Source: Streptomyces sp. NBC_01217 (GTDB lineage: Bacteria > Actinomycetota > Actinomycetes > Streptomycetales > Streptomycetaceae). From it: a stretch of 64,000 nt of DNA. A program made the translations under genes and the position numbers. The stretch lies in NCBI RefSeq assembly GCF_035994185.1, contig NZ_CP108538.1, positions 6,699,501 through 6,763,500 on the forward strand, read 5' to 3'. The notes under the pieces are model-generated. The model searched no databases, had not been told where the DNA came from, and worked only from the letters and a program-made list of their open reading frames with translations. This document shows positions 5,502 to 31,038 of this stretch, in pieces (position 1 is the first letter of the stretch; each line of letters starts with the position of its first letter).

Positions 5502-7517
5502 GTGCCGAAATATCCTGCGAGCCATGATTCAGCGGAGTCTGCCGCCCTGCTCAGGACGCCAGAACTGAACGGGATGGTCTGGGACGCGGCCGCCGCCCGA
5601 CTTCTCGCGAAGATGCTCGGTCAGTTCGCCTACGAGGAAGTCATCGAGCCGGTCCGGCAGGCCGACGGGGCCGATACGTACAGCCTCCGGCTCGACGACG
5701 ACGGAACCCTGAGCTTCAGCGCCCGGCGCGGCGTGTACGGCGGTTGGCACGTCGCCCCCGATTCGATCCGGGAAACATCCGGGAGCGCCCGAGAGGCACC
5801 GCCCGAATCGATGCGGGGCGGTGACGGGGGCGTACGGGCTGAGTCACTGCGGGACAGCGGTCAGGGTGCACGCGCCGAGCGGCCGCAGGGCAGTGACCGA
5901 GGCGCACCTGTCGAGCCGCCGCAGGGCAGTGACCGGGGCACCGAGCCGTTGCGGGGTGGCGGCGGGGGTGTCGATGCCGTCGTCCCCTTCCGCGACCCAC
6001 TGCAGTTCCTCGCCCGTGCCCGCCATCTTCTCGGGATCGACGGCGCCACCCTCGGCCACCTCATCCGCGAGGTCACCACCACCCTCGCCGCCGATGCCCG
6101 GCTCGATCACACCGCGCTCTCCGCCGCCCGGCTGGCCGACCTCGACTACGCCGAGCTGGAAGGGCACCAGACGGGACACCCCTGGCTCGTCGCCAACAAG
6201 GGGCGCCTCGGCTTCTCCGCCACCGACGCCTCCCGCTACACACCCGAGGCCCGCAAGCCGGTCAGACTGCCGTGGATCGCCGTCTCCACCAGGATCGCCG
6301 CCTACCGCGGCGTGGCAGGCCTGGCCACGCCCGAGCAGCTGTACGCACAGGAACTCGACCCGTCGGTCCGCGACTCCTTCGCCGCTGTGCTCCGTGCCCG
6401 CGGTCTCGACCCCGCCGGCTATCTCTGCCTTCCCGTGCACCCCTGGCAGTGGGACGAATGGATCGTTCCGGTCTTCGCCCCGGCCATCGCCGCGGGCGAC
6501 ATCGTTCCGCTCCACAGCGACGCCGACCTCCGGCTGCCGCAGCAGTCCATCCGCTCCTTCGCCAATGTGGCCCGTCCCGACCGGCACACCGTCAAGCTGC
6601 CGCTGTCGATCCTCAACACACTGGTCTGGCGGGGCCTGCCGACCGAGCGCACTCTCGCGGCCCCCGCCGTCACCACCTGGGTCCAGGGTCTGCGCGACCG
6701 GGACGCCTTTCTGCGCGACACCTGCGAGGTCATCCTGCTCGGCGAGGTGGCCTCGGTGACCGTCGAGCATCCGCTCTACGACCGACTCCCGGAGGCCCCG
6801 TACCAGTTCAAGGAAATCCTCGGAGCGATCTGGCGAGAACCCCTCCAGCCCCGGCTCGCGCCGGGCGAACGGGCCAGGACCCTGGCCTCGCTGCTCCACA
6901 CCGATCCCCGGGGCCGCGCCTTCACGGCCGAGCTCGTCGCCCGCTCGGGGCTGACGCCCACCGCATGGCTGACCCGGCTCTTCGCCGCACTGCTCCCGCC
7001 GCTGCTGCACTTCCTGTACCGCTACGGCACCGTGTTCTCCCCGCACGGCGAGAACGCCATCGTCGTCTTCGACGAGCAGGACGTACCGGTGCGCCTGGCG
7101 ATCAAGGACTTCGTGGACGATGTGAACGTCAGCGCCCAGCCGCTGCCTGAGCACGCGTCGATGCCGCAGGACGTACGCCGCATCCTGCTCACCGAGGAGC
7201 CCTCCTTCCTCACCCAGTTCATCCACTCCGGACTGTTCATCGGTGTCTTCCGATTTCTGTCGCCGCTGTGCGAGGAACAGCTGGGGGTTCCGGAGGCCGA
7301 TTTCTGGTCACTCGTACGGGCCGAGATCCTGCGGCACCACGCGCGCTTTCCCGAGCTCAAGGAGCGGTTCGAGATGTTCGACATGCTGACGCCACGCATC
7401 GAACGTCTCTGTCTGAACCGCAACCGCCTGCATGTCGACGGCTACCGGGACCGCCCACAGCGCCCGCACGCCGCCATCCACGGGACCGTGCCCAACCCGC
7501 TCCATCCCTCCGCCTGA
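5502..7517 (+). CDS. IucA/IucC-family NIS siderophore synthetase 2 (IucC-like), with internal repeat insertion
   Basis: Second synthetase, 671 residues, predicted to carry out the second condensation. Signatures: GHPWLVANKGRLGFS near residue 225 (HPxxxNKGRxGF form), HPWQWDEWIVP near 315, KLPLSILNTLVWRG near 370, and HGENAIVVFDEQDVPVRLAIKDFVDDV near 515. This last motif resembles the IucC/DesD side of the family and differs from synthetase 1. Start GTG 5502 follows GAGGAG. Residues about 90-156 form a Gly/Arg/Asp/Pro-rich repetitive insertion between two conserved parts of the N-terminal domain (listed separately). The gene ends 50 bp before dinG and is the last of the operon. Confidence 0.9.
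   Translation: MPKYPASHDSAESAALLRTPELNGMVWDAAAARLLAKMLGQFAYEEVIEPVRQADGADTYSLRLDDDGTLSFSARRGVYGGWHVAPDSIRETSGSAREAPPESMRGGDGGVRAESLRDSGQGARAERPQGSDRGAPVEPPQGSDRGTEPLRGGGGGVDAVVPFRDPLQFLARARHLLGIDGATLGHLIREVTTTLAADARLDHTALSAARLADLDYAELEGHQTGHPWLVANKGRLGFSATDASRYTPEARKPVRLPWIAVSTRIAAYRGVAGLATPEQLYAQELDPSVRDSFAAVLRARGLDPAGYLCLPVHPWQWDEWIVPVFAPAIAAGDIVPLHSDADLRLPQQSIRSFANVARPDRHTVKLPLSILNTLVWRGLPTERTLAAPAVTTWVQGLRDRDAFLRDTCEVILLGEVASVTVEHPLYDRLPEAPYQFKEILGAIWREPLQPRLAPGERARTLASLLHTDPRGRAFTAELVARSGLTPTAWLTRLFAALLPPLLHFLYRYGTVFSPHGENAIVVFDEQDVPVRLAIKDFVDDVNVSAQPLPEHASMPQDVRRILLTEEPSFLTQFIHSGLFIGVFRFLSPLCEEQLGVPEADFWSLVRAEILRHHARFPELKERFEMFDMLTPRIERLCLNRNRLHVDGYRDRPQRPHAAIHGTVPNPLHPSA
5769..5969 (+). 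repeat. In-frame degenerate repeat inside NIS synthetase 2
   Basis: A run of degenerate 30-40-base units encodes repeated segments such as ESLRDSGQGAR, ERPQGSDRGAPV, EPPQGSDRGT and EPLRGGGGG. The two best copies share CCGCAGGGCAGTGACCG (about 5883-5899 and 5919-5935). The reading frame is kept throughout, so the insertion is likely a surface loop that tolerates expansion. Confidence 0.75.
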
Positions 7518-22353: not shown

Positions 22354-24513
22354 ATGGACAACCTGGAGCTCCGCACTGAAGCCGATGCCATCCTTGCTGA
22401 GCTTGTCGGCGACTTCGGGGGTTCGGCGCGGCTGCGCGAGGACCAGTGGCAGGCGGTGGCGGCTCTGGTCGAGGAGCGGCGGCGTGCGCTGGTGGTGCAG
22501 CGGACCGGGTGGGGCAAGTCGGCGGTGTACTTCGTGGCCACCGCTCTGCTGCGTCGGCGTGGCTCCGGACCGACGGTGATCATCTCGCCGCTGCTGGCGC
22601 TGATGCGCAACCAGGTCGAGTCGGCGGCGCGGGCCGGTATCCAGGCGCGCACCATCAACTCGGCCAACCCGGAGGAGTGGGAAACGATCTACGGGGAGGT
22701 GGAGCGCGGTGAGACCGACGTTCTCCTCGTAAGTCCGGAACGTCTTAATTCTGTTGATTTTCGCGATCAGGTGCTGCCCAAGCTCGCCGCCACGACCGGT
22801 CTGCTGGTGGTCGACGAAGCGCACTGCATCTCCGACTGGGGGCACGACTTCCGGCCTGATTACCGCCGGCTGCGCACGATGCTGGCGGAGCTGCCGGCGG
22901 GCGTGCCGGTGCTGGCCACGACGGCGACCGCGAACGCGCGGGTGACCGCGGATGTGGCCGAGCAGTTGGGCACGGGGGGCGGGGACGCTTTGGTTCTGCG
23001 GGGGCCGCTGGACCGGGAGAGCTTGCGGCTGGGGGTGCTGGAGTTGCCGGACGCGGCGCATCGGCTGGCGTGGCTGGGTGAGCGGCTGGGGGATCTGCCT
23101 GGTTCGGGGATCATCTACACGCTGACGGTGGCGGCGGCGGAGGAGGTCGCGGCGTTCCTGCGGCAGCGCGGGTATCCGGTGGCTTCCTACACGGGGAAGA
23201 CGGAGAACGCCGATCGGTTGCAGGCGGAGGAGGATCTGCTGGCGAACCGGGTGAAGGCGCTGGTGGCGACCTCGGCGCTGGGCATGGGCTTCGACAAGCC
23301 GGACCTGGGGTTCGTGGTGCACCTGGGTTCGCCGTCGTCCCCGATCGCCTATTACCAGCAGGTGGGGCGCGCGGGGCGTGGTGTGGACCACGCGGACGTG
23401 CTGCTGCTGCCGGGGCGGGAGGACGAGGCGATCTGGGCGTACTTCGCTTCGGTGGGCTTCCCTCCCGAGGAACAGGTGCGGCGCACGCTGGAGGTTCTGG
23501 AGCAGGCGGGTCGCCCGCTGTCGCTGCCGGCGCTGGAGCCGTTGGTGGATCTTCGGCGTTCGCGTCTGGAGACGATGCTGAAGGTCCTGGACGTGGACGG
23601 GGCGGTCAAGCGCGTGAAGGGGGGCTGGACCGCGACAGGGCAGCCGTGGGCGTACGACGCGCAGCGCTACGTGTGGGTGGCCCGGCAGCGCGAGGCGGAG
23701 CAGCAGGCCATGCGGGAGTATGTGGCGACCGCGGGGTGCCGGATGGAGTTCTTGCAGCAGCAACTGGACGACGAGAAGGCGGTCCCGTGTGGTCGCTGCG
23801 ACTCTTGCGCCGGACCGTGGCTCGATCCCGCCGTCTCTCCCGGAGCCCTCGCGGCAGCGACAGGCGAGCTGGACCGCCCGGGAGTCGAGGTCGAGCCGCG
23901 CAAGATGTGGCCGACCGGACTCGCCGCGGTCGGAATGGACCTCAAGGGCCGCATCCCTGCGGGCCAGCTGGCGGTCACCGGGCGTGCGCTGGGAAGGCTG
24001 TCGGACATCGGCTGGGGCAACCGCCTGCGGCCGATCCTGTCGGCGCAGGCGGCGGACGGGCCGGTTTCGGACGACGTGCTGGCTGCCGTCGTGACGGTGG
24101 TGGCCGATTGGGCACGCTCGCCGGGTGGCTGGGCCGGTGCCTCTCCCGACGCGGTGGCGCGGCCGGTGGGGATTGTCTCCATGCCGTCCCGGACCCGCCC
24201 GCAGCTGGTGGCCTCACTGGCCGGGGGCCTGGCCCGTGTCGGCAGGCTCCCGCTGCTGGGCAGCCTCGCCTACACCCCGCAGGCCGACGAGCATGCCGCG
24301 TACCGCAGTAACTCCGCCCAGCGGCTGCGCGCCCTGGCCGCCTCGTTCACTGTGCCCGACGAGCTCGCCGCAGCCCTGGCCGCCACTCCGGGCCCGGTCC
24401 TGCTCGTCGACGACTACTCCGACTCCGGCTGGACCCTGGCCGTAGGCGCGCGCTTGCTGCGCCAGAGCGGGGCCGACCAAGTGCTCCCGTTCGTCCTTGC
24501 CCTGGCCGGGTAG
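22354..24513 (+). CDS. RecQ-family DNA helicase with a C-terminal phosphoribosyltransferase-like domain
   Basis: 719-residue superfamily 2 helicase. The RecQ motor has motif 0 (LREDQWQAV near 27), Walker A TGWGKS at 51-56, DEAHCISDWGHDFRPDYRRL from 154, SAT-like TTATANARV, and motif VI QQVGRAGRG near 345. A Cys cluster (GCRMEF...PCGRCDSC, about 460-485) is the RecQ zinc-binding site. After a winged-helix region, residues about 640-719 end in GPVLLVDDYSDSGWTLAVG, the PRPP-binding loop of type I phosphoribosyltransferases (ComF-like). ATG 22354 has GGGGG just upstream. A stretch at about 22730-22765 (LNSVDFRDQ) uses unusually AT-rich codons. A C-terminal relic of a similar gene lies immediately upstream on the other strand, suggesting replacement of a resident copy. 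Confidence 0.88.
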   Translation: MDNLELRTEADAILAELVGDFGGSARLREDQWQAVAALVEERRRALVVQRTGWGKSAVYFVATALLRRRGSGPTVIISPLLALMRNQVESAARAGIQARTINSANPEEWETIYGEVERGETDVLLVSPERLNSVDFRDQVLPKLAATTGLLVVDEAHCISDWGHDFRPDYRRLRTMLAELPAGVPVLATTATANARVTADVAEQLGTGGGDALVLRGPLDRESLRLGVLELPDAAHRLAWLGERLGDLPGSGIIYTLTVAAAEEVAAFLRQRGYPVASYTGKTENADRLQAEEDLLANRVKALVATSALGMGFDKPDLGFVVHLGSPSSPIAYYQQVGRAGRGVDHADVLLLPGREDEAIWAYFASVGFPPEEQVRRTLEVLEQAGRPLSLPALEPLVDLRRSRLETMLKVLDVDGAVKRVKGGWTATGQPWAYDAQRYVWVARQREAEQQAMREYVATAGCRMEFLQQQLDDEKAVPCGRCDSCAGPWLDPAVSPGALAAATGELDRPGVEVEPRKMWPTGLAAVGMDLKGRIPAGQLAVTGRALGRLSDIGWGNRLRPILSAQAADGPVSDDVLAAVVTVVADWARSPGGWAGASPDAVARPVGIVSMPSRTRPQLVASLAGGLARVGRLPLLGSLAYTPQADEHAAYRSNSAQRLRALAASFTVPDELAAALAATPGPVLLVDDYSDSGWTLAVGARLLRQSGADQVLPFVLALAG

Positions 24514-24623: not shown

Positions 24624-25367
24624 TTATTGATCGGCTGTTTCGCGGGCCAGCGCGTTGTTCCCGGTCGAGTTGTGCACGCTGAAGCTCACTGCGTCCGGGC
24701 GGTAGCGGTCGTCCGACCACTCCACCGGCCGCCCTTCGCGTGTCGTGGTGAGCCGACGGATGCGCAGGAGTGGGCTCGTACGGCGGATGGCGAGCAGTTC
24801 GGCGTCCTGGGCTCCGGCCGCCACCGCGTCGATGACATGCTCGCCGTAGGCGAAGACCAGGCCCGTGTCGTCGTAGAGCCGCTGGGTGACGGAGGGGCAG
24901 TCGGGCTCTATCGTCGCCACGGCGGGGGAGATCCAGTCGGCGTACACGGTCCGCTCGATCAATACCGGCTCGCCGTCCAGGCCGCGCAGTCGCAGAACGT
25001 GCAACACATGCGTACTCGCCTGTAGTTGGAGGCGTGCCGCATCCTGTTGGGTCGCTGGGCGATACTCCTGGGCGATGACGCGTCCGGTCGCCTCCCGCCC
25101 CATCGCACGCGCCCACTGGGCGAAGCTGTGCAGTTCGGCGAAGCTCTGGCTGCGGCGGCTGGCCAGCACCACGCGGCGGGCGCCCTGTCGGGAGCCGATG
25201 AGTCCCTCGGCGGTGAGGGCCGCGACGGCCTGACGGATGGTGCCGCGCGAGACGCCGTAGTGGGCGGCGAGCTCCGTCTCCGAAGGCAATCGGTTGCCGA
25301 CTGTGTACTCGTCGCGGTCGATCGCCCGCCGCAGCTCATCGGCGATCTGTTCGTGTCGCGCCGGCAT
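24624..25367 (-). CDS. GntR-family (HutC/UTRA) regulator
   Basis: 247-residue repressor-type regulator. The N-terminal GntR winged helix (ADELRRAIDRDEYTVGNRLPSETELAAHYGVSRGTIRQAVAAL) covers 9-52. A UTRA effector-binding domain follows (VLRLRGLDGEPVLIERTVYADWISP, then LLRIRRLTTTREGRPVEWSDDRYRPDAVSFSV). ATG 25367 has GAGGGGAAG upstream. It is divergent from the ABC importer operon at 25589 and almost certainly regulates it: the intergenic region contains an 18-bp near-palindrome of the kind recognised by this subfamily (including phosphonate regulators). UTRA domains bind small metabolites; the ligand is presumably the imported compound or a breakdown product. Confidence 0.9.
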   Translation of the reverse strand: MPARHEQIADELRRAIDRDEYTVGNRLPSETELAAHYGVSRGTIRQAVAALTAEGLIGSRQGARRVVLASRRSQSFAELHSFAQWARAMGREATGRVIAQEYRPATQQDAARLQLQASTHVLHVLRLRGLDGEPVLIERTVYADWISPAVATIEPDCPSVTQRLYDDTGLVFAYGEHVIDAVAAGAQDAELLAIRRTSPLLRIRRLTTTREGRPVEWSDDRYRPDAVSFSVHNSTGNNALARETADQ

Positions 25368-25387
25368 GCTTCCCCTCTGAGTCTGTC

Positions 25388-25399
25388 GCTGTGCACAGC
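25388..25399. promoter_or_regulatory. 12-bp palindrome near the regulator start
   Basis: GCTGTGCACAGC is a perfect palindrome 21 bp upstream of the GntR start. It differs from the 25520 operator and its function is unknown. Confidence 0.35.
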
Positions 25400-25519
25400 G
25401 TGAGCAGCCTAATCGAGATCCGGCGGTGCTGCGTTCCGGGTGCGATTCCTCGGGAAATCTAGAGGCATCATTTTGCCGGAGTTCACGAGAACGACATCTG
25501 AGGCGGGCCTACTGGGGCC

Positions 25520-25537
25520 AACTTGTTCAGACAAGTT
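25520..25537 (+). promoter_or_regulatory. Probable GntR operator at the transporter promoter
   Basis: AACTTGT-TCAG-ACAAGTT is an inverted repeat with perfect 7-bp arms and a 4-base centre. It contains the TTGTNNNGACAA-type core seen in HutC-family operators such as those of phosphonate regulators. It lies 52 bp before the SBP start, where it would overlap the -35 region. Confidence 0.72.
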
Positions 25538-25588
25538 ATGTGCAATCTATGTCTGTTCTGCATCCCTCCCGTCTCCCCTGGAGCAGTC

Positions 25589-26746
25589 GTGACCGTGTCC
25601 CTTCCGCGAGCAGCCGTGCTCAGCGGTTCCCTTGCCGTCGTCGCCGTGCTCGCCCTGAGCGCCTGCGGCGCCGCCCCCGACAACGCGTCGACCACCGCCG
25701 ACGGCAAGAGCGCCGCCACCGCCACCTCCGCCGCCGACTTCGGCGGCATGGAGAAACTGGTCACCGCCGCGAAGAAGGAGGGCACGCTGCACGCCATCGC
25801 GCTGCCCCGCGACTGGGCCAACTACGGCGCTCTCATCGACGGCTTCGAGAAGAAGTACGGCATCAAGATCGAGGTCGAGAACCCGGACGGCTCCAGCCAG
25901 GACGAGATCAACGCCGTCACCTCCCGCAAGGGCCAGAACCGCGCGCCGGACGTCCTCGACCTCGGCAGCTCCTTCGCGCTCAGCGCCGCCCAGCAGGGGC
26001 TGCTCGCGCCGTACAAGGTGACCGCGTTCGGCGACATCCCGGAAGGGCAGAAGGACGCGCAGGGGCGCTGGTACAACGACTACGGCGGCTACATCTCCAT
26101 CGGCTGCGACGCGAAGCGCGTGAAGACGTGCCCGACGACCTTCGCGGACCTGCTCAAGCCGCAGTACAAGGGCCAGGTTGCGCTCAACGGCAACCCCACC
26201 AAGTCCGGTTCGGCCTTCGGCGGGGTGTACGCGGCCGGGCTCGCGTCCGGCGGCTCCTTCGACGACATCCAGCCCGGCCTCGACTTCTTCGCGAAGCTGA
26301 AGAAGAACGGCAACTACACGCCCGTCGAGTCGACTCCGGCCACCGTGGAGAAGGGCGAGACGCCGATCAGCATCGACTGGGACTACCTGAACGCCGGCTA
26401 CGCCGACGAGTTCGAGTCCAAGGGCGTGGACTGGAAGGTGTCGGTGCCCAGTGACGGCCAGTTCTCCCAGTACTACTCCCAGGCCGTCAACAAGGACGCC
26501 CCGCACCCGGCGGCTGCCCGCCTGTGGCAGGAGTACCTCTACAGCACCGAGGGCCAGAACCTGTGGCTCAAGGGTTACGCCCGCCCGGCCCTGATGACCT
26601 CCATGGAGAAGGCCGGCACCCTCGACAAGACGGCCGCGGCCAAGCTGCCCAAGGTCTCCGGCACGCCCACCTTCCCGACCGAGGCCCAGCAGAGCAAGGC
26701 CAAGACGGTCCTCGGAGAGGGCTGGGCGAAGGCCGTCTCCGAATGA
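25589..26746 (+). CDS. ABC importer substrate-binding lipoprotein (PhnS-like)
   Basis: 385-residue periplasmic-type binding protein anchored as a lipoprotein: signal peptide with LALSAC-G, lipidated Cys26. The mature protein (EKLVTAAKKEGTLHAIALPRDWANYGALIDGFEKKYGIKIEVENPDGSS) follows the iron/thiamine/2-aminoethylphosphonate binding-protein fold (family 1/6). The ASxFALSAAQQGLLAPYK and ISIGCDAKRV blocks are typical. GTG 25589 is the probable start; GTG 25595 is close. The two permease genes overlap or abut and follow immediately. The ligand is unknown; similarity to PhnS suggests an organophosphorus compound, which is inference. Confidence 0.85.
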   Translation: MTVSLPRAAVLSGSLAVVAVLALSACGAAPDNASTTADGKSAATATSAADFGGMEKLVTAAKKEGTLHAIALPRDWANYGALIDGFEKKYGIKIEVENPDGSSQDEINAVTSRKGQNRAPDVLDLGSSFALSAAQQGLLAPYKVTAFGDIPEGQKDAQGRWYNDYGGYISIGCDAKRVKTCPTTFADLLKPQYKGQVALNGNPTKSGSAFGGVYAAGLASGGSFDDIQPGLDFFAKLKKNGNYTPVESTPATVEKGETPISIDWDYLNAGYADEFESKGVDWKVSVPSDGQFSQYYSQAVNKDAPHPAAARLWQEYLYSTEGQNLWLKGYARPALMTSMEKAGTLDKTAAAKLPKVSGTPTFPTEAQQSKAKTVLGEGWAKAVSE

Positions 26747-27639
26747 CGGACACCCTCACCCGGGTCGACACGGCGACCGCCGCTCCTGTGAAGCGGCGGC
26801 GCCGCCCGCTCGGCCCGCTCGCCGTCGTCCCGCTGCTCGCCTTCACCGCGCTCGCCTTCGGGCTGCCCGCCTGGGCCATCCTGGACGGCGCCTTCACCGT
26901 CAAGAACCAGGCCACGGGGACCAGTTCCTACAGCACGGCCAACCTGACCCTGTCGTTGCAGGGTGCGTACCTGACGGCGCTGATCGGCAGCGTCAAGCTG
27001 TCCGCGGTCTCCGCCGCCCTCGCGGCCCTCCTCGGACTGCCCCTCGCCCAGGCCGTCGTCACCTCCCGCTTCCGCGCGTTGCGCGAGGCCGTGCTCACCG
27101 CGTCCGGGGTCCTGGCCAACTTCGGCGGTGTCCCGCTGGCCTTCGCCTTCGTCGCCACACTCGGCAACGCCGGTGTGCTGACCCGGCACCTGGGCCTGAC
27201 CGACAAGGGCTGGGACCTCTACAGCTTCTGGGGACTGGTGATCGTCTACCTGTACTTCCTGATCCCGCTGATGGTCCTCACCATCACCCCCGCACTGGAG
27301 GGCCTGCGCACCCAGTGGCGCGAGGCAGCGCAGAACAACGGCGCGACTCCGGTGCAGTACTGGCGGCACGTCGCCCTGCCCGTCCTCGCGCCCTCACTCC
27401 TCGGCGGTCTGGTGCTGCTCTTCGGCAGCGCCTTCGCCGCGTACGCCACCGCCGCCGCCATGGTCGGCAGCTCCATCCCGCTGGTCACCCTGCAGATAGC
27501 CGATGCGATCTCCGGCAATGTGCTGGTCGGCCAGGAGAACGTGGCGCTCGCCCTCAGCCTCGACATGGTCCTGGTGGCGGGCCTGGTCATGGCCGTGTAC
27601 CTGCCCCTGCAACGACGGAGCGCGCGATGGCTCGCCTGA
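26743..27639 (+). CDS. ABC importer permease 1 (PhnU-like)
   Basis: 298-residue membrane permease, about six hydrophobic segments. The conserved EAA loop is visible as WREAAQNNGATPVQYWRHVALPVLAPSLLGG near 200, the cytoplasmic contact with the ATPase. The first 30 residues are basic and cytoplasmic. ATG 26743 overlaps the SBP stop (ATGA), indicating translational coupling. It pairs with the next permease; together they form the membrane channel of the binding-protein-dependent importer. Confidence 0.9.
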   Translation: MTDTLTRVDTATAAPVKRRRRPLGPLAVVPLLAFTALAFGLPAWAILDGAFTVKNQATGTSSYSTANLTLSLQGAYLTALIGSVKLSAVSAALAALLGLPLAQAVVTSRFRALREAVLTASGVLANFGGVPLAFAFVATLGNAGVLTRHLGLTDKGWDLYSFWGLVIVYLYFLIPLMVLTITPALEGLRTQWREAAQNNGATPVQYWRHVALPVLAPSLLGGLVLLFGSAFAAYATAAAMVGSSIPLVTLQIADAISGNVLVGQENVALALSLDMVLVAGLVMAVYLPLQRRSARWLA

Positions 27640-28439
27640 ACCCGTGGCGGTGGGGCGTGTTCGGCCTCGCCGGACTGTACTTCCTGGTGCCGCTGGCCGC
27701 GTCCGTGGTCTTCACGGTCGACGTGCCCGGGCAGGGCCTCACCTTCGACGCCTACAGCCGGATCTTCTCCACGAACGGCTTCGGCGCCAGTCTGCTCCTC
27801 TCGCTGGAGCTGGCCCTGGCGACGATCGCCGTCGTCCTGCTGCTGATGGTGCCCGCCATGGTCGCGCTGCGGCTCGGCGCGCCCCGGCTGCGGCCGGTCG
27901 TCGAAGTGGTGTGTTCTTTGCCGCTGGTCGTGCCGCCGATCGCGTTCGTCGCCGGCATCGGCACCGTCCTGAAGTGGGGGCCCGAACACCTCTCGCGCAC
28001 ACCGCTGTTCCAGACGTTCGTGGCGATCCAGAACCCGGACTTTCCCGTGATCCTCGTCCTGGCGTACGTCGTGATGGCGCTGCCGTTCGTGTACCGCGCC
28101 CTGGACGCGGGCCTGCGCGCCGTCGACGTACGCACCCTCGTCGAGGCTGCCCGCAGCTGCGGGGCAGGCTGGCCGCAGGCACTCGTGCAGGCCGTCCTTC
28201 CCAACCTGCGCGGCGCACTGCTCAACGCCTCCTTCCTCACCCTCGCCCTGGTCCTCGGCGAGTTCACCGTCGCCCAGCTGCTCGGCTTCCAGCCCTTCGC
28301 CGTGTGGATCGTGAACGTCAGCGGCTCGCAGGCCCAGCTCTCCGTTGCCGTCTCCGTGCTCAGCCTGCTCGTCACCTGGGCACTGCTCCTCGCGCTCGCC
28401 GGTGTCGGCGGGCGTTCCCGTACCACTTCCCGGGGATGA
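27627..28439 (+). CDS. ABC importer permease 2 (PhnV-like)
   Basis: 270-residue permease with about six membrane segments beginning [29 protein letters not shown]. The EAA loop is [30 protein letters not shown] near 172. The ATG at 27627 overlaps the end of permease 1 by 13 bases. The ATPase gene starts three bases after its stop. Second half of the heterodimeric channel. Confidence 0.9.
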
Positions 28440-28442
28440 ACC

Positions 28443-29519
28443 ATGACCGTCACCACGCTTGAGAAGAAGGCCGGCGAGAAGGCGGCCACCGTCGAATTCC
28501 AGGGCGTGCGCCGGGAGTTCGGGCCGACGCTCGCTCTCGACGGATTCGACCTGACCGTGCGGCCGGGCGAGCTGCTGGCTCTGCTCGGTCCGTCCGGCTG
28601 CGGCAAGACCACCGCGCTGCGCATGCTCGCCGGGTTCGAACAGCCGGATGCCGGTGCCGTGCTGGTCGACGGCGAGGACGTCAGCCGTATCCCCGTCCAT
28701 CGCCGCGACGCCGGGATGGTCTTCCAGTCGTACAGCCTCTTCCCGCACCTCGACGCGCTCGACAACGTGGCCTTCGGGCTGCGCATGCGCAAAGTGCGCA
28801 CGGCCGAACGGCGGGCGCGCGCCGGCGAGTTGCTGGAGCTCGTCGGCCTTGCCGACAAGGGCGGGAGGTTTCCGCACCAGCTCTCGGGCGGCCAGCAGCA
28901 GCGTGTCGCCCTGGCCCGCGCCCTCGCGCTGCGCCCGCGCGTCCTGCTGCTCGACGAACCGCTGTCCGCGCTCGACGCCAAGGTACGGCTGACGCTCCGC
29001 GAGGAGATCCGGCGGCTTCAGCAGGAGCTCGGCATCACCACGCTGTTCGTGACCCACGACCAGGAGGAGGCCCTGTCCACGGCGGACCGGGTCGCCGTGA
29101 TGCACGCCGGCCGGCTCGAACAGTGCGCCGCCCCGGCCGAGTTGTACGGACGTCCCGCCACCGCCTTCGTCGCCGAGTTCGTGGGCACGATGAGCCGGAT
29201 TCCGGGACGGCTGGCCGACGGGACCGTCGAGGTGCTGGGGCAGCGCCTGCCGGTGGACGGGCAGGCGCCGACGGCGACCGAAGTGGACGTCCTGGTGCGG
29301 CCCGAGGCCGTGGAGGTAGGCGCCGACGGCGACGGGGACGCGCGCGTGGTCGCCACCGCGTTCCTCGGCGCGGCCACCCGGATCACGGTACGGCTCGCCG
29401 ACGGCACGGAGGTGAAGGCCGACCTGCCGACGCACGAGGCCGCCGCACTCGGCTCCGGGGCCGCAGTGAGCGTGTCACTGCCGCAGCGTCCGGTGCTGGT
29501 GGCCGAACGCACGCGTTGA
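28443..29519 (+). CDS. ABC importer ATPase with regulatory OB-fold tail (PhnT/PotA-like)
   Basis: 358-residue ATP-binding subunit. Walker [10 protein letters not shown] near 49, signature LSGGQQQR near 147, Walker [11 protein letters not shown] near 168, and switch His in [10 protein letters not shown] near 201 are all standard. The C-terminal 110 residues form the TOBE-type domain seen in importers for iron, spermidine and 2-aminoethylphosphonate ([35 protein letters not shown]). Starts ATG 28443, three bases after permease 2. Energises the importer. Confidence 0.93.
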
Positions 29520-29574
29520 CAGCCCAAACCCCTCACGCACGAGACAGAACCCACCCCACGTGAAAGAGCGCACC

Positions 29575-31038
29575 GTGACCCGACCCCCACTCCAGGCCGT
29601 GCTGTTCGACATGGACGGCACACTCGTCGACACCGAGCGGCTGTGGTGGGAGGCGGTGGAACAGGTCGCCGGGCGCTCCCTGACCGAGGCGGACCAGCCG
29701 GAGGTGCTCGGCCGGCCGGTCGAGCACACCGCCGCGTGGCTGGGCGCGGCCACGGGTAGGCCGTTCGCGGACGTCGCCGCCGCACTGCACCGGGAGTTCA
29801 CCGACCGCGTCCGTACCGGCATCGTTGCCCGCCCGGGTGCACTCGCCCTCCTCGACGCCCTCGCCGCAGAGGGGACCCCCACCGCGCTGGTCACCGCCTC
29901 CTCCCGGGCCGTCGCGGACATCGTCCTCGCCTCCCTGGGCGCCGACCGGTTCGCCGTGTCCGTCACCGCCGACGACACCGAGCGCACCAAGCCCGCCCCC
30001 GACCCCTACCTGGCCGCCTGCAGCGCCCTCGGCGCCGACCCCACCCGCTGCGTGGCGGTCGAGGACACCCGGACCGGCGTCGACTCCGCCGAGGCGGCCG
30101 GGTGCGCGGTGCTCGCGGTCCCGTCACTGGCGCCGATCGAGACGGCGGCGGGACGGACGGTGCTGGCCAGCCTGGAAGGGGTCACTCCCGAGCAGCTGCG
30201 CGCCCTGGTCGCCCCTCGGCTGCGCGTGCTGAGCTGGAACCTCTGGCACGGCGGGACGATGGTCGAGGACCACCGGTCCAAACAGCTCAAGGTCATCCTG
30301 GACGCCGAGGCCGATGTCGTGGGACTGCAGGAGACCGGCGGCACCGCGGCCCAGGAACTCGCCGAGGCGCTCGGCTGGTACCACCACCGGGCGGGCGAAA
30401 ACCTCGGCATCATCAGCCGCCACCCGGTCATCACTCGCCTCGGCGACCCCGACGTCGGCTTCTACGGAGCGGCGGGCGTCCGCATCCGCATCGACGGAGC
30501 GTACGAGCTGGACGTGTGGACCGCCCACCTCCACTACACGCCGTACGGGCCCTACGAGGCCGCCTTCGAAGGACTCCCGGCGGCCGAGCTGATCGCTCAC
30601 GAGGAGGTGCGGCTCGCGCAGATGCGGGACGCGCTGCGGCGAATCGCCGAGGCGTCCGACGCCACGACGCCCGTGGTGCTCGTCGGGGACTTCAACGCGC
30701 CCTCCCACCTGGACCGGCCGGACGTCGCCTGGCCGGTGACGAGAGCCGCCGAGGAGGCCGGCCTGCGCGACTCCTACCGCGAGGCCCACCCGGACCCGAT
30801 CGCCGACCCCGGCCACACCTGGTCCCCCATCCACGCCGAACACGAGGACGGCAGCGGCCGCCCCGAGCCGCAGGACCGCATCGACTACGTCCTCCACAAC
30901 GGCCGGGGCCTGGGAGTCCTAGACTCCCGCACCGTCGTCACCGGCACTCCGCGTGCCTGGCCCGACGTCGCCGGCAACGACTGGCCGTCGGACCACGCGG
31001 CGGTGCTCACGACCTTCACCCTGGGCCGGGTGGAGTGA
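29575..31038 (+). CDS. Fused HAD phosphatase - endonuclease/exonuclease/phosphatase (EEP) hydrolase
   Basis: 487-residue single polypeptide with two hydrolase domains. Residues 1-215: HAD superfamily, nucleophile Asp12 and acid/base Asp14 in LFDMDGTLVDT, Ser/Thr motif in ALVTASSRA near 104, Lys in KPAPDPYL near 140, and acidic motif VEDTRTGVDSAEAAG near 162. Residues 216-487: EEP (DNase I/sphingomyelinase/5-phosphatase) domain with LSWNLWHGG, VGLQET, GDFNAP (Asp372, Asn374) and SDH (Asp473, His474). No signal peptide or membrane segment, so it is cytosolic. GTG 29575 is preferred over GTG 29560 for its purine-rich leader. It is 55 bp after the ATPase and is probably the last gene of the operon. 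The pairing suggests a phosphodiesterase step followed by a phosphomonoesterase step, which is inference. Confidence 0.85.
   Translation: MTRPPLQAVLFDMDGTLVDTERLWWEAVEQVAGRSLTEADQPEVLGRPVEHTAAWLGAATGRPFADVAAALHREFTDRVRTGIVARPGALALLDALAAEGTPTALVTASSRAVADIVLASLGADRFAVSVTADDTERTKPAPDPYLAACSALGADPTRCVAVEDTRTGVDSAEAAGCAVLAVPSLAPIETAAGRTVLASLEGVTPEQLRALVAPRLRVLSWNLWHGGTMVEDHRSKQLKVILDAEADVVGLQETGGTAAQELAEALGWYHHRAGENLGIISRHPVITRLGDPDVGFYGAAGVRIRIDGAYELDVWTAHLHYTPYGPYEAAFEGLPAAELIAHEEVRLAQMRDALRRIAEASDATTPVVLVGDFNAPSHLDRPDVAWPVTRAAEEAGLRDSYREAHPDPIADPGHTWSPIHAEHEDGSGRPEPQDRIDYVLHNGRGLGVLDSRTVVTGTPRAWPDVAGNDWPSDHAAVLTTFTLGRVE

Follow-up and report, generated by a model that had tools for sequence, protein, structure and literature searches.

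A conserved Streptomyces transporter cassette ending in a HAD-EEP fusion hydrolase and its proposed tie to phospholipid-headgroup salvage

Phosphocholine is released by phosphocholine-specific phospholipases C (PC-PLC) as well as by sphingomyelinases. In Pseudomonas the secreted phospholipase C (PLC) PlcH releases it and the periplasmic HAD phosphatase PchP removes the phosphate, choline being the compound that is imported. Ugp(B)AEC with UgpQ/GlpQ of Escherichia coli and Corynebacterium glutamicum joins import of a phospholipid-derived phosphoester by an ATP-binding cassette (ABC) transporter to a hydrolase, and is tied to phosphorus supply (PMC7866108 and PMC8603345, cited, like the other papers, from excerpts). 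UgpB of Mycobacterium tuberculosis has been solved with glycerophosphocholine (PMC8603345); the PLC genes of this species respond to phosphate starvation and its sphingomyelinase SpmT (Rv0888), which has a channel domain, reportedly conveys phosphocholine through the outer membrane (PMC4658479). Other described importers are AfuABC, which takes up hexose phosphates, with H205, D206 and E229 of the binding protein AfuA essential for sugar binding and no fused hydrolase named in the excerpt (PMC4546632), and the 2-aminoethylphosphonate (2-AEP) systems PhnSTUV and AepSTU. Here we describe a six-gene cassette, at 24624-31038 of a 64,000-nucleotide stretch of the Streptomyces sp. NBC_01217 genome (hereafter the window), in which a transporter of the same superfamily as these 2-AEP systems ends in a single protein with a HAD phosphatase and an EEP phosphoesterase domain. 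Among the papers listed in searches of open-licence literature, which also covered trimethyl-AEP transporters, none describes an ABC phosphocholine importer, such a HAD-EEP fusion or this system.

The cassette is real and conserved, and two findings now tie it to phospholipid-headgroup salvage: its sister operons, and an operator that stands before a small, lineage-specific set of lipase genes. We explain it as substrate-inducible scavenging of phospholipid-headgroup phosphoesters, most likely of choline type (phosphocholine and/or glycerophosphocholine (GPC), with phosphoethanolamine possible), an explanation to which we give about an even chance. A secreted PLC, sphingomyelinase C or secreted EEP would free the phosphorylated headgroup outside the cell, and a lipoprotein solute-binding protein (SBP), two permeases and an ATPase would import it intact. 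The EEP domain would then open imported diesters to the monoester and the HAD domain would take off the phosphate, yielding choline (or another alcohol) and inorganic phosphate. The GntR/UTRA protein would repress the cassette, and in some species also the secreted lipase, through the palindrome ACTTGT-N4-ACAAGT until substrate or product binds the regulator. A more ambitious version, which we offer tentatively and lean against, would combine a dedicated ABC importer of phosphocholine/GPC, one repressor wiring it to secreted PLC, sphingomyelinase C and secreted EEP, and a single-chain diesterase-phosphatase end into a complete phosphorus-salvage regulon for phosphatidylcholine and sphingomyelin, with lineages recruiting different lipases to the same operator.

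Among the described systems Ugp/GlpQ is the nearest in action, built from other families. The SBP of the cassette is best matched by SBP_bac_6, with no UgpB model among its five NCBIfam matches, and the ATPase stays under the UgpC cut-off (282 of 432 bits). A HAD-EEP fusion takes the place of GDPD, no GDPD Pfam domain being found among the cassette proteins, and control is of the GntR/UTRA kind. SpmT shares the coupling of sphingomyelin cleavage to phosphocholine uptake, but does so with an outer-membrane channel in the same chain, whereas the cassette has an ABC importer with cytoplasmic hydrolases. The difference from PlcH/PchP is that here the phosphoester would be imported before it is dephosphorylated.

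The fusion hydrolase (29560..31038, plus strand) is encoded by a single frame, with the HAD domain at residues 14-187 (29599..30120; HAD_2, 1.7e-27) and the EEP domain at residues 224-479 (30229..30996; Exo_endo_phos, 2.3e-20). A sequence-only reading of the window had claimed that both domains are intact in one polypeptide, and the Pfam domains and conserved catalytic residues bear this out; the length it gave, 487 residues, is corrected to 492 aa from the GTG start. In a 62-row alignment D19, S114, K144 and D169 of the HAD domain and N227, E258, H323, D377, N379, D442, D478 and H479 of the EEP domain are invariant. D17 falls just short of invariance, owing to miscalled gene starts: HAD motif I was found in 75 of the 80 related loci as called and, with D17, in all 80 after five starts were extended. 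A broken frame in relatives had been set beforehand as one of the points that would speak against the earlier reading; the gene was called as one uninterrupted open frame in 80/80 related Streptomyces loci. With D17 as nucleophile and D19, S114, K144 and D169 completing motifs I-IV, the HAD domain belongs to the HAD-IA phosphatases (TIGR01509, 61.1 bits against a cut-off of 29.4) and, as had been claimed, is not PhnX-like (TIGR01422, 44.2 bits against 220). The EEP domain has the catalytic N, E, H, D/N, D and D/H of its superfamily (PF03372). The predicted structure of the whole protein has a pLDDT of 85.9 and a pTM of 0.76. Its best NCBIfam match reaches 95 bits, and the bacterial sphingomyelinase C model TIGR03395 (cut-off 248.2) is not among the best 25 of 31 matches, the rest having E > 1.2e-5. 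The EEP domain was also considered as a sphingomyelinase and rejected, BLASTP against one such enzyme (in locus L276; L and G numbers are our own for loci and genomes) giving no significant similarity. In an EEP tree a single clade (99/96) unites the 11 Streptomyces fusions that were sampled.

The other genes are as the earlier reading had laid them out. The SBP gene (25589..26746, plus strand) encodes a protein best matched, among four SBP families, by PF13343 (7.9e-29), the family that also holds AepX and AepS (PMC8316502, excerpt). Its start is more likely GTG 25589 than TTG 25523 because the latter falls within a palindrome at 25521-25536; from GTG 25589 the protein bears a lipoprotein-like LSACG signal by eye. 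Both permeases (26743..27639 and 27627..28439, plus strand) are BPD_transp_1 proteins by Pfam (PF00528, 3.1e-8 and 1.2e-9), and the ATPase (28443..29519, plus strand) carries PF00005 and a TOBE_2 domain (PF08402). Genome scans gave 105 relatives of which the best 80 were kept, all Streptomyces by title except one 'Actinobacteria bacterium'. Contig ends truncate two loci, L024 and L047; in the 78 that hold all six genes the order regulator, divergent SBP, two permeases, ATPase and fusion is always the same, and the neighbouring regulator is 83-90% identical in 77 and 77% identical in one. RecQ, DUF4192 and NUDIX, the outer neighbours in the window, were not found in the 80 related loci, and the cassette is therefore the conserved unit. 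Among 150 Streptomyces genomes, our own included, 32 have a full-length fusion, and a further one, G139, has a copy truncated at the end of a contig. The gap between ATPase and fusion measures 183-1015 bp in six fusion loci, with a called gene inside only in L088 out of five inspected. Three unusually long gaps (635-1015 bp) are L052:9194-10001, L054:8986-10001 and L088:9366-10001, and the gene called in L088 lies on the opposite strand. Of 137 actinomycete genera sampled, 43 have the SBP_bac_6 transporter branch as such (E <= 1e-30).

Regulator and SBP genes are separated by a gap with a perfect 16-bp palindrome, ACTTGTTCAGACAAGT (25521..25536), with TCAG between the arms ACTTGT and ACAAGT. 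If one mismatch is allowed, about 0.01 such sites per window are expected by chance. A perfect copy stands in 77 of 78 related gaps, the exception being L016, where there is none, and no further perfect copy occurs within those 78 loci. The divergent regulator (24624..25367, minus strand; PF00392, and PF07702 for the UTRA domain at 5.5e-32) has as its best NCBIfam model PhnF (TIGR02325), at 129.8 bits below the cut-off of 156.8 and thus outside that family. The UTRA domain and a palindromic GT-N4-AC site, to which binding is predicted, place it in the HutC/UTRA subfamily of GntR; this spacing is typical of most HutC-subfamily sites (PMC4494728, excerpt). By its sequence and position, the palindrome is likely a HutC-type operator.

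Further evidence comes from other Streptomyces and related families, in which the same divergent regulator and orthologous transporter occur with different endings. In L139-L145 and L222-L228 the last gene of the operon encodes a free-standing HAD that shares 50-58% identity with the HAD of the fusion; in L146, L147 and G002 (L148/L149) HAD lies beside the regulator on one arm and EEP closes the other; L152 and L260 have HAD and lack EEP. In L255 a PF01663 phosphodiesterase stands downstream at the usual place of EEP, and HAD lies on the opposite arm. A second HAD-EEP protein (659 aa; HAD 22-213, EEP 374-649) is encoded in L245, which comes from another family of the class; it forms a long branch in the EEP tree and may or may not have arisen separately. 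The sister EEPs keep their catalytic residues, as do the sister HADs wherever the trimmed sequence covers them. In 52 SBP loci outside the fusion set, part of which were chosen through HAD/EEP matches, those with a divergent GntR beside the SBP (24 rows but 23 places, as L166 and L245 overlap) carry HAD in 20 places, against 1 of the 28 rows without such a regulator. The set chosen by SBP alone (L221-L260; 37 usable of 40, since the low-G+C loci L256-L258 gave no SBP from the gene caller) has HAD in 9 of 11 vs 1 of 26; HAD was sought by BLASTP only, so these counts could miss a remote homologue. EEP is missing from 16 of the 20 HAD-bearing places. From the split-gene, HAD-only and second-fusion operons, HAD and EEP are recurrent partners in one pathway, HAD being the more constant. 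The transporter therefore probably takes up a phosphomonoester, or a compound whose first product is one. The proposal that import, EEP cleavage and HAD dephosphorylation form one route thus gains support for the link between the two enzymes; their substrate and order we infer.

Among the HAD-only sisters the operator is perfect in 7 of 14 and present as the shorter CTTGT-N4-ACAAG in all 14, while the split and L152/L260 operons carry CTTGT-CCAT-ACAGG. The short form was also seen in three regulator loci that lack HAD, and no operator was found in 25 transporter loci outside the fusion, HAD/EEP and regulator types. Five lone SBP copies without permeases or ATPase (L229, L231, L150, L153 and L259) each lie beside a gene for 787-922 aa that looks sensor-like by eye; they are perhaps ligand sensors.

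Some copies of the operator outside the cassette stand before genes for secreted phosphoesterases. The 9.03-Mb genome of our strain has two perfect copies only, in the cassette and at 8696753, where the first base lies 68 bp upstream of a PC-PLC gene (L265:8822-10891). This PC-PLC has 689 aa, a Tat-like signal by eye and a TIGR03396 score of 864 bits against a cut-off of 580. The genome has two PLC matches at E <= 1e-100 and ten EEP-family matches. In 42 other cassette genomes 40 perfect copies were found in 38 genomes, with none in G098, G004, G526 and G056; 37 are at cassettes, one is on a contig other than that of the fusion in a fragmented genome (G001) and two are elsewhere. In G063 the copy stands before L157, a secreted EEP paralogue with 45% identity to the EEP of the fusion; in G101 a double site, one copy perfect and one with a mismatch, precedes a secreted PF04185 phosphoesterase. 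In G067 a copy that has one mismatch and the same centre lies before a sphingomyelinase C (TIGR03395, 325.9 bits vs 248.2; nearest solved chain 7cne, a sphingomyelinase C), and copies with two mismatches stand at equal distance in G007 and G063. Because all three perfect off-cassette sites inspected precede extracellular phosphoester-cleaving enzymes, a small class, we judge them probably real, by argument rather than by simulation. By eye, the N-terminal part of the secreted EEP (L157:1329-2813) and the C-terminal part of the G101 phosphoesterase (L275, minus-strand gene ending at 6488), both of which follow the palindrome, share an accessory stretch 'NWVG(L/F)Y ... YYL.NDGY', which also occurs twice in an EEP of L176.

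Several counts weigh against a wide operator network and against the headgroup explanation. An operator before PC-PLC and sphingomyelinase genes as a general rule was rejected: it is absent, at more than two mismatches, upstream of 29 of 30 PC-PLC genes tested (from 73 PLC matches listed) and of 17 of 20 sphingomyelinase genes, the one in the window genome included. For this reason the lipase link is patchy and lineage-specific. The best upstream matches are no better than those in shuffles for PLC (4.77 vs 4.75 mismatches) and little better for sphingomyelinase (4.45 vs 4.86). Off-cassette sites are also no more frequent than control sites: across the 42 genomes there are two perfect ones (three with G001) vs six for a reversed control pattern, and 29 vs 59 sites at up to one mismatch in 21 genomes. 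The off-cassette sites with one mismatch number 27 in these 21 genomes; of 14 inspected only those of G101 and G067 led to phosphoesterases, and a pair in our own genome adjoins another GntR gene. On their other side the G101 sites are flanked by an S9 peptidase gene. In 79 fusion gaps a search with an 11-bp-repeat pattern found no PHO-box-like repeat. Such repeats occur in 3 of 14 HAD-only gaps (the regulator/SBP gaps of L139, L140 and L222) and in 2 of 25 other transporter loci. The repeat unit of 11 nt follows an excerpt of PMC7866108.

The choice of headgroup rests on the operator-linked PC-PLC and sphingomyelinase, both of families that free phosphocholine, on TmpA genes close to some related transporters and on the binding protein; choline is the leading candidate rather than a proven one. 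The nearest solved chain to the SBP is 5t1p (1.9e-47, family profile), perhaps of Campylobacter origin, and the solved relatives of this branch are named mostly as iron-binding or 2-AEP-binding. An alignment with AfuA is weak (38.5 bits), for which reason residue places may be out by 1-2; the numbering was shifted by 2 to fit five residues. In it the stretches aligned with the sugar-binding residues hold D263, W264, D265, Y266 and Y296, which almost all of 125 relatives share. These aromatic and acidic residues would fit a quaternary-ammonium box, but would also suit a polyamine. The SBP also has a tyrosine pair at 295-296 (Y295 in at least 90% and Y296 in all of 38), which may or may not correspond to the Fe(III) ligand pair in the pocket of FbpA-type proteins, the structure model of the SBP being too poor (pLDDT 41) to show the pocket.

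The same alignment bears on the strongest rival, an importer of sugar or alditol phosphate monoesters (e.g. from plant litter or teichoic acids) resembling AfuABC, with HAD as sugar-phosphate phosphatase and EEP as a second phosphatase or sugar-phosphodiester enzyme. The binding proteins are related, AfuA Thr150 on the phosphate side aligns with S208, a residue retained in the fusion and HAD/EEP sets whereas 20 of 28 others have Ala, and the nearest characterised relatives of the HAD domain act on sugar and alditol phosphates, a further point against choline. Yet AfuA Ser37 aligns with D100, the essential triad is not conserved, A269, G270 and Q294 standing in its place, and the operator-linked genes are lipases and phosphoesterases, with no glycosidases. 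We regard this rival as unlikely, though it is the one that survives best.

Less probable again is a system that scavenges glycerophosphodiesters (glycerophosphoinositol, -glycerol, -ethanolamine) and does not favour choline, an analogue of Ugp/GlpQ from other families. EEP is paired with HAD, and in L165 HAD, EEP and a second, longer EEP surround a weakly UgpB-like importer of another family. In L176 (G458) a TmpA-TmpB fusion, a PC-PLC, a PI-PLC-C1 protein and an EEP relative lie side by side, the transporter being absent; this EEP is degenerate, having lost H323, D377 and N379 and going unrecognised by Pfam, and is the exception among 30 sampled EEPs, 29 of which keep all eight catalytic residues; its decay also counts slightly against the headgroup explanation. 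The existence of HAD-only operons, however, implies that monoesters already serve as substrates, and the operator-linked PLC and sphingomyelinase yield phosphomonoesters, as is known for their families.

We hold equally improbable an importer of 2-AEP or an N-methylated aminophosphonate of the PhnSTUV/AepSTU kind, with a phosphonatase-like HAD and an incidental EEP. The resemblance to PhnSTUV noted in the sequence-only reading stands in so far as SBP, permeases and ATPase are of the same superfamily and the best NCBIfam models for SBP and ATPase are 2-AEP transporter models; every Phn cut-off was missed (65.2 of 395.3 bits for TIGR03227, 74.3 of 310 for NF011620, 294.8 of 499.15 for TIGR03258 and 393.3 of 457.7 for TIGR03265, PhnT2). 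An SBP tree in PMC8316502 includes a Streptomyces diastatochromogenes protein. The genome has no PhnW or PhnX over the curated cut-off, in agreement with the earlier claim of none nearby, but the same holds for 14 control genomes, so that this absence has no positive control. TmpA is modelled in NCBIfam as 2-trimethylaminoethylphosphonate dioxygenase, and its substrate is the phosphonate analogue of phosphocholine. In 4 of 52 SBP loci (L141-L143 and L233) a TmpA over its cut-off lies close to a transporter of this type, together with TmpB-like HD proteins. These neighbours suit the phosphonate importer and, by analogy, a choline headgroup. As support for the headgroup explanation the cases are few, three coming from a single genus and sharing one neighbourhood, and L233 lacking HAD and operator; against the phosphonate importer, TmpA occurs in none of the 80 fusion loci, the cassette ends in phosphoester hydrolases, and a diesterase would have no role in breaking down a phosphonate. 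The L176 gene (5121-6704, plus strand) encodes TmpA and TmpB in a single chain of 527 aa (NF049936, 418 bits vs 400; HD part 349-522). That EEP is a nuclease or nucleotide phosphodiesterase in a nucleotide-salvage cassette is very improbable, for although the fold includes TDP2, nocturnin and ExoIII, the nearest EEP relatives found beyond such operons seem by eye to be secreted and one of them is linked to the operator, and nothing seen in the operons points to nucleotides.

Some further observations lie outside the cassette. The window carries an IucA/IucC and FhuF siderophore synthetase at 5574-7517 (PF04183, PF06276), after an aminotransferase-like gene at 1331-2677 (by eye), and a RecQ-like helicase at 22354-24513, whose long C-terminal part has a VLLVDDYSDSGWTL stretch that by eye resembles a phosphoribosyltransferase motif. 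In L170 (family f24), close to a PotD-like SBP, a Rieske protein with weak similarity to glycine betaine monooxygenase (211 of 670 bits) is followed by an EEP; L171 and L173 seem to have the same arrangement.

A 2021 review describes Streptomyces as without a ugp cluster and as probably cleaving glycerophosphodiesters outside the cell rather than importing them (PMC7866108, excerpt). If the headgroup explanation is true, an importer of headgroup phosphates with a cytoplasmic HAD-EEP enzyme would change this picture for about one fifth of the genus, going by the distribution of the fusion, and for the HAD-only sisters too. The operator makes the headgroup-salvage explanation directly testable, and the cassette could help to assign substrates across this SBP_bac_6 transporter branch.

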